Shown here: positions 26,243 to 58,498 of the stretch, piece after piece
Layout of the letters: every line of letters begins with the position of its first letter
Position numbering within the stretch: the stretch's first letter is position 1
DNA from: Rhodococcus sp. W8901
GTDB taxonomy: Bacteria; Actinomycetota; Actinomycetes; Mycobacteriales; Mycobacteriaceae
Direction: 5' to 3'
Assembly (NCBI RefSeq): GCF_013348805.1
Contig: NZ_CP054690.1
Span: forward strand, 2,852,001 to 2,916,000
DNA: 64,000 bases
Program-made: the position numbers and the translations under genes
Notes under the pieces: generated by a model
The model's database searches: none
Seen by the model: only the letters and a program-made list of their open reading frames with translations
What the model was told of the DNA's origin: nothing

Positions 26243-26467
26243 GTGACCAACCCGTTTGACGACCACGATGCGAACTTCCTGGTGCTGGTCAACGAGGACA
26301 ACCAGCATTCGCTCTGGCCCGCGTTCGCGGATGTTCCCGCCGGCTGGGCCGTAGCGCACGGGAAGGACACCCGCCGCGCCTGTGTCGACTACATCGACAC
26401 CAACTGGACCGACCTTCGGCCGGGCACTCTGCTCGCCGCGCGGGAGCATGATTCGTCGCTCGATTAG
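26243..26467 (+). CDS. mbtH: MbtH-like protein, NRPS adenylation-domain chaperone
   Basis: A 74-residue MbtH protein with the full signature: MTNPFDD, FLVLVNEDNQHSLWPAF, PAGWAV, the cysteine-containing CVDYIDTNWTDLRP, and a short tail. MbtH proteins bind adenylation domains and are needed for their folding or activity. It precedes the giant NRPS by 204 bases on the same strand, so it almost certainly serves that enzyme. The GTG at 26243 (or the adjoining GTG at 26240) follows GAGAGGTG. A TAGCAT at 26157-26162 is a possible -10 element about 80 bases upstream. I see no IdeR iron box, which argues against an iron-regulated siderophore system. Confidence 0.95.
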   Translation: MTNPFDDHDANFLVLVNEDNQHSLWPAFADVPAGWAVAHGKDTRRACVDYIDTNWTDLRPGTLLAAREHDSSLD

Positions 26468-26671
26468 GCGTCCCGAAAGGCGCCTGCGAGCCCCTCGATC
26501 CGACCCCCGACAGGGGCGCACGGACGAACCGGACCGAAGGGGCATTTTTGCCTATCTACCAGGCCATATGTCGGTCTTTCGTGCGGCCGGAAACCGTCCG
26601 GGCGGCGAAAGGATCTTGATATGGTGTGGTCCCGATGCAACCGGGGCATTCTGCTCTCAGGGGGCGAGTAA

Positions 26672-29600
26672 ATGACGTTGTCAGGATCTCGGGAACCCGG
26701 CTCACGCGGTTCCGATCATCCGGATCTACCCACCGAGGCTTTTCCGCTGTCCTCGGTGCAGCGGAGTATGTGGTTCGCCCAGCAGCTCCGGCCGAGCGTT
26801 CCGATTTTCATCGCACAGTATGTGGCGCTACACGGCGACCTCGACATCGAGCTGCTCCGCCGGTGCGCGCTGATTACGGGGGAGGAGTTCCAGTCGCCGT
26901 ACCTGCGACTGGTCGACGTCGACGGCGAGCCGTGGCAGCTGCTCGATCCCGACATCGACACGTCGATCGGGCAGGTGGACCTGCGCGAACAGCCCGACCC
27001 GATGGCCGCGGCGCACGCGTGGATGGACCACGACCACTCGGTCCCGATCGACCTGACCCGGGATCCTCTTGTCGACATGACGATCCTGCAGATCGGCGAT
27101 CGAGACTATCTGTGGTACACCAGAATTCACCACGTAGCCCTCGACGGCTACAGCGGAATGACCATGGCGAACCGCATCGCCGCGCTCTACACCGCGGCCG
27201 TGGAACAGCGTGACCTCGAGCCGCCTCGCGCCCTCGATCTTCGCGAACTCCTCGCGATCGACCAGAAGTACCGGGCGTCGAGCCGATTCCAGGCCGATCG
27301 CGAGTATTGGGCCGACCACATCGCGGGCATCGAGTCCGGGTCGACGCTCGCCGAGAACGACGCGCCCGTCGAGGCCGTCAGCCGGGTCGCGAGCGCCCCG
27401 CTGCCCGCGGCGGTGATCGAGGCCCTCGACACCACCGACCGGCGCCTCGAGGCCACCCCGGCGGCGGTGCTGATCGCGGCCTTCGCGTGCTACCTGAGCC
27501 GGATGACCGGCCGCACGGACGTGCTGGTCAACATGCCGGTGTCGGCGCGGACCACCGCCCCGTTGCAGCGGTCGGGCGGCATGCTCGTCAACGTCGCGCC
27601 GCTGCGGGCGACGGTGCTGCCCAACGACACCGTCGCCGACGTCGTCGGACGGATCCAACTGGAGTTGATGGGCGCGCTGCGGCACCAGCGGTGCAGCATC
27701 GAGGACATCCGCCGCGACGCCGGGTTGACCGGCACCGCGCGAGGACTGGCCGGCCCGATGGTCAACGTGATGCTGTTCCATCAACAGATGACACTGGGGC
27801 CGATCGTCGGCGAGTATCACATCGTCACGTCCGGCCCGGTCGAGGACCTGCTGGTCAACTTCGTCCAGAGTGGAACCCCGACAAGGACATTCGTCGAATT
27901 CCGGGCGAACCCCGGGCGCTACACCGAGGATGCGCTGCGCACCCACCACCGGCGGTTCCTCGAGCTGATCGACGAGTTCGTCCTCGCGGCCCCCGAGACC
28001 CGCGTCGCCGACATCCACACGGAGAGCTCGGCGGTGGGAGCGCAGCTGCTGCGGACCGCGGCGCAGCTCGAGTTCTGGTCCCGCGAGCTGGCGGGGCTGC
28101 CCGACATCCTGTCGCTGCCGTCCGATCGCCCGCGCCCGTCGCGCCGCGCGCTGGACGGCGACCGGGTGGACTTCGCGATCGCGCCGCACGCCCACCGGGC
28201 CCTGACAGAGCTGGCCGCCGAGCGCGGGTGCACGGTGTTCGGTGCCGTGCACGCGGCACTGGCGGTGTTGCTGTCGCGTCTGGCCGACGTGGACGACATC
28301 GCGATCGGGACCCCGGTCGCCGGCCGCGCCGCGGGCGGCGAATTCGTCAACACGCTCGCCCTGCGCACCACACTGCCGCCGGGGATCACGTTCGACGAAC
28401 TGCTCACCGCCGTGTGCAGATCCGACCTGGCCGCGTTCCGGCACGCCGAGACCCCGTTCGCGCAGCTGGTGGAGGCGCTGGACCGGACGCGGGAGAACGC
28501 GCACTCTCCGCTGTTCCAGGTGATGCTCGAGTTCCGCGACGGACGCACCCCCCACCTCGAGCTCGACGACCTGCTCGTCCGGGGCGCGGACGCGGGGCCC
28601 GACCTGTCCGCGCTCGACCTGCGCCTGACCGTCGAGCAGCGGTTCGATGCCGACGGCGCAGACCGTGTGCACGACGGGATGGACGCCTCGTTCGCGTATG
28701 CGACGGACATGTTCGACCGCGAGACCATCGAGGCGCTCGCGTCACGTTTCGTCCGGGTACTCGACGCGGTGCTCGACGATCCGTCCACCCCCGTCGCCGA
28801 CATCGACCTGCTCGGCGACGACGAACGCCTGGCGTTGTCCGGGGTGTGGGGAGGCGACGGCGTCACACCGCGCACCCTGGCCGACCTGCTCGACGGCGCC
28901 GCACGCCGGGACCCGGATCGGGTCGCGCTGACGTACGAGGGCCGGGACGTCACCTACCGCGAACTCGACGAGCAGTCGAATCGGTTGGCGCGCATGCTGA
29001 TCGCGCGAGGGGTGGGCCCCGAGACGGTGGTGGCGCTGTCGATGCCGCGGTCGATCGAGTCGGTGACCTCGGTGTGGGCGGCCGCGAAGACCGGCGCGGC
29101 GTTCGTTCCCGTGGACCCGAACTATCCGGCCGACCGGATCGAGCACATGCTCACCGACTCCGGTGCGGTCCTGGCGCTGACGGTCGCGGCGCACACCGAC
29201 GCGGTCGCCGACACCGTCGCGACGCTGGTGCTCGATGCGCCGGGCTTCGCCGAGCAGGTCCGCCAGTGGCCGACCGATCCGGTCACCGACGCCGACCGGA
29301 TCGCCGGCATCCGCATCGACCATCCCGCCTATCTGATCTACACGTCGGGATCGACCGGCACCCCGAAGGGCGTCGCGGTGACCCATCGGGGCCTGGCGAA
29401 CTTCGCCGAGGACGAACGGGTCCGGTACGGGGTGCGGCCCGAGTCGCGGACCCTGCACTTCTCGTCACCGAGCTTCGACGCGTCGGTGCTGGAACTGATG
29501 CTCGCGGTCGGCGCGGGCGCGACCATGGTGATCGCGCCGCCGACGATCTACGGTGGCGCCGAACTGACCCGGCTGTTGCGGCAGGAGCACGTCACCCACG

Positions 29601-58119: not shown

Positions 58120-58126
58120 GGCGCCA

Positions 58127-58498
58127 TCAGCCCGTAGCACGATTCGTGTCGCCGTTGGACCCGATGACGACGTCCTCGACGCGACACGTCTCGCCGATCA
58201 TCAATTCGTACAGGCTGCGGAGGAAATCGGGAGACAGCCCGTTCGCGCGAGCGAATTCCTCGGCGCGTGCCTGAACGAGGTTCACGCGACCGGGCTGCAT
58301 CATCGGGATTCGCTGATGTCGCTTCACCTCCGCTATCCGGACACACACATCGATGCGGGCTCGAATGGCCTCGAGTAGCCGGTCATCGATCGCGTCGAGT
58401 TCCGCCCGCAGACGAGCCAACCCCGGCTGCTCGGCCGAGATCGCATCCACGGGGGGTTCTGAGGTGCAGGCCCTCGCGGGGCCGTTGGTGTCGTCCAT
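58127..58498 (-). CDS. papB: 4-amino-4-deoxychorismate mutase (PapB)
   Basis: A 123-residue AroQ-fold chorismate mutase-like protein. After a flexible N-terminal 25 residues it reads LRAELDAIDDRLLEAIRARI, then VKRHQRIPMMQPGRVNLV, with the arginines and lysine that bind the two carboxylates, and a final helix with LYELMIGETCRVED. The MMQPGRV stretch is what I know from PapB and chloramphenicol-type mutases, which rearrange 4-amino-4-deoxychorismate to the prephenate analogue. The ATG follows GGCGAGGTGG. It is the first gene of the operon with papA (7-base gap), papC and the N-oxygenase, so its promoter should lie in the region upstream of 58498. Confidence 0.88.
   Translation of the reverse strand: MDDTNGPARACTSEPPVDAISAEQPGLARLRAELDAIDDRLLEAIRARIDVCVRIAEVKRHQRIPMMQPGRVNLVQARAEEFARANGLSPDFLRSLYELMIGETCRVEDVVIGSNGDTNRATG

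Follow-up and report, generated by a model that had tools for sequence, protein, structure and literature searches.

A papABC–N-oxygenase operon conserved beside IupU-type peptide synthetases of rhodococci and its predicted role in humimycin-type lipopeptides

The locus and its genes

The window, i.e. the whole stretch of DNA analysed, is 64 kb of the 5.71-Mb chromosome of Rhodococcus sp. W8901 (contig NZ_CP054690.1, positions 2,852,001 to 2,916,000), a strain of Prescottella (R. equi group). It carries an mbtH gene, a very large nonribosomal peptide synthetase (NRPS) gene and, convergent with the latter, an operon composed of papB, papA, papC and an aryl-amine N-oxygenase gene. The window genome was compared with 13 relatives from the genus, which include P. 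equi DSM 20307 (G004), P. defluvii, P. agglutinans, P. subtropica and R. xishaensis. The features of the NRPS and the operon are as follows.

26243..26467, plus strand: mbtH; GTG start, upstream GAGAGG; Pfam MbtH, 91.5 bits
26672..53539, plus strand: NRPS of 8955 amino acids, seven modules in a single open reading frame (ORF); identified by ORF, Pfam and motifs
26672..28051, plus strand: N-terminal condensation domain C1 in starter position; HHVALDG at residue 153
28058..28861, plus strand: second, C-terminal half condensation domain of module 1; identified by alignment to the other condensation domains
52742..53536, plus strand: thioesterase domain; Pfam Thioesterase, 88.1 bits
54093..55088, minus strand: CmlI-like diiron arylamine N-oxygenase, 331 amino acids; Pfam AurF, 191 bits
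55085..55981, minus strand: papC, prephenate-dehydrogenase-like, 298 amino acids; Pfam PDH_C 27.4 (cut-off 22), PDH_N 26.4 (cut-off 26.5)
55978..58119, minus strand: papA, fused 4-amino-4-deoxychorismate synthase, 713 amino acids; TIGR00553, 372 bits (cut-off 328); PDB 8hx6, 828 bits
58127..58498, minus strand: papB, chorismate-mutase family, 123 amino acids; Pfam CM_2 64.8; TIGR01803 79.4 (cut-off 73.35)

Motif analysis of the NRPS revealed seven adenylation (A) domains, seven thiolation (T) domains, one thioesterase (TE) domain and two epimerisation (E) domains, the latter positioned after T3 and T5 (E motifs at residues 3603 and 6225). Ten condensation (C)-type stretches were delimited by Pfam; both E domains and a half domain are counted among them. 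The codes of the A domains of modules 1 to 7 were DALFVGAVVK, DVWHFSLVDK, DALFVGAVVK, DALWMGGVIK, DFWNIGMVHK, DGFFVGAIMK and DAFFAAGIQK, of which we take the second and fifth to specify Ser and Thr, respectively; in module 5 the A5 core motif has the altered form YGITE. C1 is about 25–29% identical to the other C domains of the NRPS. In module 1 the extra half domain (residues about 463–730) aligns with the C-terminal halves of the other C domains, at 43–49% identity for C2, C3, C5 and C7 and at 27–28% for C4 and C6; it lacks the half that carries the HHxxxDG motif. The spacing between C1 and A1, about 700–740 amino acids, is similar in the related NRPSs that were read.

Within the operon, papA and papC share ATGA, papC and the oxygenase gene share GTGA, and a gap of 7 nt separates papB from papA. 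The operon is translationally coupled, and it converges on the NRPS. An earlier note on this DNA had described mbtH, a complete seven-module NRPS and a convergent papB-papA-papC-N-oxygenase operon of overlapping or abutting genes, and had predicted a peptide of the form X1-Ser-(D)X3-X4-(D)Thr-X6-X7. The reading of ORFs, Pfam domains and motifs, the gene overlaps with the 7-nt gap, and the Ser and Thr codes at A2 and A5 combined with the positions of the E domains all agree with that description.

The NRPS as an orthologue of the humimycin A synthetase

In the accessible part of PMC12024397, humimycin A is given as acylated Tyr-Ser-D-Tyr-Phe-D-Thr-Val-Val, with other residues at positions 4 and 6 in humimycin B. 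According to the accessible text of PMC5550956, humimycin A was predicted from iupU of R. equi and the compounds were synthesised from the prediction, while genes for an amidohydrolase, an N-acyltransferase, MbtH and sometimes a dehydrogenase are conserved in humimycin clusters. The iupU gene is REQ23810 and the iupABC permease REQ24080-100 (PMC2947987, accessible part).

The order of genes in P. equi DSM 20307 was found to be amidohydrolase, apolipoprotein N-acyltransferase (Lnt), mbtH, NRPS (8934 amino acids), a small gene, oxygenase, papC, papA, papB and lipase. With the window as the reference, the DSM 20307 NRPS has seven modules, the same positions of E domains, and identical or nearly identical A codes, and its mbtH is a 78% match to that of the window. 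The window NRPS has the Ser2 and Thr5 codes and, as in R. equi, A1, A3, A6 and A7 of the same type. All three members of the humimycin neighbour set (amidohydrolase, N-acyltransferase and MbtH) are present in the window, two of them upstream of mbtH.

19840..21453, plus strand: amidohydrolase, a neighbour type named for humimycin clusters (PMC5550956, accessible part); P. equi DSM 20307 likewise has it next to the NRPS
21362..23152, plus strand: Lnt, start approximate; identified by sequence match; also in P. equi DSM 20307

The Lnt is probably the N-acyltransferase of the published clusters. In P. equi DSM 20307, tandem FecCD permease genes follow the end of the NRPS at a distance of ∼27 kb, in keeping with the numbering of REQ23810 versus REQ24080-100. 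The FecCD pair of the window genome is ∼109 kb from the NRPS end and not 27 kb, a point on the other side of the balance. Judged by module count, E positions, codes, the gene order of DSM 20307, the published neighbours and the iupABC-like distance in DSM 20307, the window NRPS is almost certainly an orthologue of IupU, the humimycin A synthetase. Therefore, while the gene identities, module order, D residues and operon–NRPS tie of the earlier interpretation stood, its statement that no rhodococcal heptapeptide of this type had been described did not: the pattern is that of humimycins A and B. A second large NRPS (8198–8201 amino acids; DSM 20307) was also considered as the humimycin synthetase and was rejected, as its codes were read without Ser at position 2; some of its A domains had been missed by motif in the first reading, and the later reading gave six.

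No structure of a native humimycin product was found in the accessible humimycin literature. The literature searched, likewise available in part, yielded no connection of papABC or an N-oxygenase with humimycin or iupU, the original 2016 humimycin and corynecin-cluster papers being outside its scope. In the accessible texts the term "nitro" occurs 0 times in PMC12024397 and once in PMC5550956, the latter having 0 occurrences of both "aminobenzoate" and "chloramphenicol". Literature searches that combined Rhodococcus with 4-aminophenylalanine or nitrophenylalanine peptide products yielded nothing. Thus, the synthetase and the predicted peptide are already known, and the operon beside them has apparently gone unremarked in the parts of the literature covered.

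Proteins encoded by the operon

PapA, PapB and PapC provide the route from chorismate to 4-aminophenylpyruvate, and CmlI-type enzymes convert aryl amines into nitro groups. The papA product scored above the curated NCBIfam cut-off for aminodeoxychorismate synthase component I (TIGR00553), and its single solved relative under 1e-60 was the 4-amino-4-deoxychorismate synthase 8hx6 (828 bits). PapB exceeded the cut-off of the chorismate-mutase-like family TIGR01803, and PapC that of PDH_C in Pfam, its PDH_N score being 0.1 bit below the cut-off. The same gene order in P. equi DSM 20307 argues that the arrangement is not due to chance.

Against the PDB, the oxygenase gave 278 bits to 5hyg (annotated as "uncharacterized protein"), which we take to be CmlI, and 156 bits to AurF (3chh); it failed the strict NCBIfam AurF model NF045603, with 174 bits against a cut-off of 620. 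Seven positions, presumed to be the diiron ligands of CmlI-type oxygenases, were kept in 47 of the 47 homologues aligned. By these scores, the enzyme is nearer to CmlI than to AurF, and the diiron ligands are present. The oxygenase tree mostly follows the genera, G103 and the protein of genus g9 being an exception. In this tree the Prescottella proteins stand apart from two plasmid-encoded proteins of the chloramphenicol type.

Co-occurrence and linkage of the operon and the NRPS

The distribution of the two elements was analysed in 401 genomes of the family, using thresholds of E <= 1e-150 for C1, E <= 1e-10 for the oxygenase (AurF) and E <= 1e-230 for PapA, the first and the last being cut-offs of our own choice. 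Within the genus, the oxygenase was present in all 14 genomes and a full-length orthologue of the NRPS in 13; the exception, G003, is a 79%-complete assembly with broken frames. In the family, a C1-type NRPS was found in 96 of the 401 genomes, 94 of which also carried the oxygenase, while 17 genomes had the oxygenase without a C1-type NRPS and 288 had neither (Fisher p 6e-71, a value that ignores shared ancestry). PapA and the oxygenase were found together in 103 family genomes, with seven carrying PapA only and eight the oxygenase only. Outside the family the oxygenase is rare (three genomes in a 394-genome sample of the class).

Linkage was counted among the matches listed, with at most four scored places per genome, and this applies to all distances given below; two genomes with partial PapA matches (G155 and G003) are in the linkage count and outside the 1e-230 set. 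Among the 94 genomes with both papA and C1, the two lay within 50 kb of each other in 55 and farther apart in 15, and 24 had no pair on the same contig, i.e. in 55 of the 70 genomes that could be judged the distance from papA to the NRPS start was no more than 50 kb. The proportion of linked to judged genomes was 13/14 in genus g1, 6/6 in g21, 14/14 in g27, 1/1 in g15, 20/21 in g6 and 1/14 in g23. In two of the "far" genomes linkage is nevertheless probable: in G209 the genes are near the two ends of one contig, and in G003 pieces of an NRPS module and TE lie ∼8 kb from the oxygenase.

The relative position of the operon was read in named genomes; elsewhere the analysis used distances alone. 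Prescottella, R. oryzae, R. maanshanensis, G103 and G058 have it next to the 3' end of the NRPS. In R. ruber, G140, G222 and Antrihabitans G027 it adjoins the 5' end. Outside g6, PapA and the oxygenase were no more than 6 kb apart in 72 of 72 genomes. In g6 this held for 3 of 33, the other 30 having either no same-contig pair (22) or the two genes apart on one contig (8); papA is beside the oxygenase in the g6 genomes G018, G083 and G098. The operon is split in g6 genome G292, where papBA adjoins the end of the seven-module NRPS and the oxygenase is ∼1 Mb off, and in G255 and G048 papC and the oxygenase are located elsewhere, beside another NRPS.

This repeated linkage in different arrangements suggests that the products of the operon and of the NRPS probably cooperate; their association in such varied layouts would be hard to explain otherwise.

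Predicted product and competing readings

Gene families, gene order, coupling, conservation and the orthology with IupU were read from the sequence. We consider it probable that the locus encodes a humimycin-type (iupU) lipoheptapeptide together with a dedicated supply line, and that the native product is a humimycin congener with 4-amino- or 4-nitrophenylalanine at position 1, 3 or 4 or at several of these. The reactions of the following scheme are those of the known PapABC and CmlI pathways. PapA would convert chorismate into 4-amino-4-deoxychorismate, PapB would rearrange the latter, PapC would oxidise and decarboxylate it to 4-aminophenylpyruvate, and a housekeeping aminotransferase would yield L-4-aminophenylalanine. 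The NRPS, aided by MbtH, may load this amino acid at module 1, 3 or 4 or at several of these; the starter C domain would N-acylate the first residue, epimerisation would take place at positions 3 and 5, and the TE would release N-acylated X1-Ser-D-X3-X4-D-Thr-X6-X7. The CmlI-like diiron enzyme would oxidise the aryl amine, most likely to the nitro group, either before the amino acid is incorporated or in the finished peptide. Incorporation into the peptide, the loading position, the oxidation state and the acyl chain are the predicted parts of this scheme.

The co-occurrence with the oxygenase (94 of 96) and the linkage (55 of 70) indicate that the native product probably carries 4-amino- or 4-nitrophenylalanine where humimycin has Tyr or Phe. 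The same two counts, the latter drawn from both ends of the NRPS and from several genera, stand against the alternative that the NRPS makes the published humimycin A (Tyr1, D-Tyr3, Phe4) and that the 4-amino- or 4-nitrophenylalanine of the operon, or a compound derived from it, serves another use, the two sharing the locus for reasons of common regulation or history. The alternative is rather unlikely in our estimation, and several observations favour it. First, DALFVGAVVK, the code of A1 and A3, was also read in G156, G304 and G050 of genus g9, which gave no AurF match at 1e-10 and no PapA match at 1e-180. Second, the 17 genomes with an AurF match and no C1-type NRPS indicate that the operon has other uses. 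Third, in 13 of the 14 judged g23 genomes the operon is far from this NRPS among the matches listed; G092 and G221 of this genus keep the seven-module NRPS and have the operon beside another NRPS with a DALFVGAVAK domain. Fourth, the window genome itself contains two DALFVGAVAK A domains at about 4.40 and 4.42 Mb, a long way from the operon.

Further findings weigh in the same direction against a supply of 4-aminophenylalanine to this NRPS. The six-module NRPS of g27 is beside the operon and has no DALF code. Genome G071 carries a six-module relative without the oxygenase, with a PapA-like match of 50% identity and with most codes as in the g27 NRPSs, A3 and A5 being different. In the 54–57 kb read around the operon, this NRPS type was not found in G053, G117 and G351, and only other NRPS genes were found in the stretch of G018. 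Finally, the code of the chloramphenicol-type CmlP-like protein, DASMQSAVCK, is unlike all seven codes of the window.

The two DALFVGAVAK domains of the window genome sit in a block of large NRPS genes (chromosome positions 4381281-4425118). As for DALFVGAVVK, the g9 genomes that carry it together with the oxygenase are G124, G395, G293 and G351. It was rejected as a marker of 4-aminophenylalanine because, in g9, four of four genomes with AurF and three of four without AurF had it among the matches listed (14 of the 401 genomes searched, 30 loci read). When the 34 residues taken to line the A-domain pocket were compared, the g9 domains were alike and differed from A1 and A3 of the window at several positions outside the code. 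In the six-module g27 NRPSs beside the operon (G195, G140 and G222), A3 has Lys243 and Glu331, the corresponding residues in G071 being Ile and Ala. This single contrast is consistent with Lys243/Glu331 as a possible trace of a 4-aminophenylalanine pocket. The A4 domain of the seven-module NRPSs is variable between species. A PDB search with A1 returned general NRPS matches only, and literature searches for A-domain codes of known 4-aminophenylalanine modules yielded nothing. Overall, the sequence ties the operon to the NRPS family and does not indicate which module takes the residue.

Compatible with the preferred reading, i.e. a humimycin congener with an operon-derived residue, is a variant in which this residue stays an amine, or is oxidised to a hydroxylamine, nitroso or azoxy group and not to nitro. 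In G037, PapABC and this NRPS type lie on separate contigs and the oxygenase was not detected, which makes an amine form conceivable. The retention of the seven presumed metal ligands in all 47 aligned homologues and the presence of the oxygenase in 14 of 14 Prescottella genomes point away from this variant, to which we give roughly one chance in four.

4-Aminophenylalanine is close to tyrosine in shape, and A-domain codes could read para-amino or para-nitro phenylalanine as Tyr or Phe; by argument, not as a result, a code-based Tyr at positions 1 and 3 would then be the expected mistake. In its broadest form the proposal is that R. equi and other rhodococci naturally make humimycins of a nitro-aryl kind, i.e. 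lipoheptapeptides in which 4-nitrophenylalanine (or 4-aminophenylalanine) replaces the Tyr or Phe of the synthetic compounds, and that a large family of such synthetases and pap operons extends over several rhodococcal genera. This we advance tentatively, as slightly short of an even chance.

Neighbouring genes

The remaining features of the locus lie at the convergent junction and beyond papB.

53657..54067, plus strand: small Gly-rich protein with a signal-like N terminus; adjoins the NRPS
54075..54113, no strand assigned: inverted repeat at the convergent junction, perfect over 19 nt, 1-nt loop, with the oxygenase stop codon at its centre; found by repeat search
58925..60196, plus strand: secretory lipase; Pfam LIP

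The small Gly-rich protein had no NCBIfam match. Full or partial matches, 51–92% identical, were found beside the NRPS end in seven of seven other Prescottella loci compared, and the gene is also near this NRPS type in two Antrihabitans genomes and in G292. The inverted repeat could possibly terminate transcription in both directions; a terminator scan called no terminator there.

The lipase gene adjoins the TE end of the NRPS in G092, G221 and G265, where the pap operon sits elsewhere. Since the lipase is beside the NRPS end even without the operon at the site, the operon may lie between two older neighbours. A gene for an old-yellow-enzyme-like flavoprotein (23875-26085) is placed between Lnt and mbtH and is also ahead of mbtH in P. 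defluvii; no match was found at the corresponding place in P. equi DSM 20307. Beyond the lipase are the genes of a nickel-dependent hydrogenase and a 20-kDa subunit (61605-63825).

Comparison with known systems

Gene clusters of the chloramphenicol/corynecin type are carried by plasmids of R. qingshengii TG-1 and Rhodococcus sp. H-CA8f (L233 17920-31769 and L235 15920-29774), with CmlI-like, CmlP-like, CmlA-like and PapABC proteins, DAHP synthase and Cmx efflux. Common to these clusters and the window are papA, papB, papC and the CmlI-type oxygenase (54–55%, 47%, 47% and 45% identical, respectively). CmlA, present in the plasmid clusters, was not found here, and a seven-module NRPS stands where those clusters have a single AMP-binding CmlP-like protein. 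The CmlA-like protein of H-CA8f gave 814 bits to 4jo0. In the CmlA search at 1e-15, none of the 14 genus genomes gave a match, while the control, the source plasmid itself, did (1/1). This negative result makes the chloramphenicol/corynecin route an unlikely sink for the operon product. Rhodococcus sp. H-CA8f is a reported corynecin producer in the accessible literature, and its plasmid set may be the true corynecin cluster.

In papers based on antiSMASH, as far as accessible, the label "corynecin" is given to clusters of Prescottella sp. R16 (40%) and of R. erythropolis (100%). In R16 (G010), this NRPS and the operon are ∼17 kb apart, and its label may stem from the pap and oxygenase genes. 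That the window locus is itself a corynecin or chloramphenicol cluster, as the R16 label (corynecin, 40%) and the shared papABC and CmlI homologues would have it, is extremely improbable: no CmlA was found in the 14 genus genomes at 1e-15, a seven-module NRPS is present instead, and in the tree the two plasmid proteins form a clade that does not include the oxygenase. Such a product was therefore rejected. "Corynecin" labels derived from pap and cmlI genes may mislead in this group.

AurF, the p-aminobenzoate N-oxygenase, has the family and the diiron ligands in common with the window oxygenase, from which it is set apart by the lower PDB score (156 against 278 bits) and by the NCBIfam result (174 bits, cut-off 620). 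Pap-like genes are also part of the obafluorin cluster. The nitro-aryl unit of obafluorin derives from 4-aminophenylalanine through the NRPS ObaI and an aryl-amine oxygenase (PMC5490192, accessible part). There a beta-hydroxy homologue is closed to a beta-lactone, whereas the window encodes a heptapeptide NRPS.

With the humimycin A NRPS/IupU, the window system shares the seven modules, the E domains after modules 3 and 5, Ser2, Thr5, MbtH, the amidohydrolase and Lnt. Humimycins A and B as published were synthesised from predictions with Tyr and Phe, and the accessible accounts make no mention of the papABC–oxygenase operon. Humimycins are under study as leads against drug-resistant Staphylococcus aureus (PMC12024397, accessible part), yet were designed from A-domain predictions. 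The conserved operon suggests a specific, checkable correction of the humimycin structure, which could change the activity, the mode of action and the detection of these compounds in cultures.

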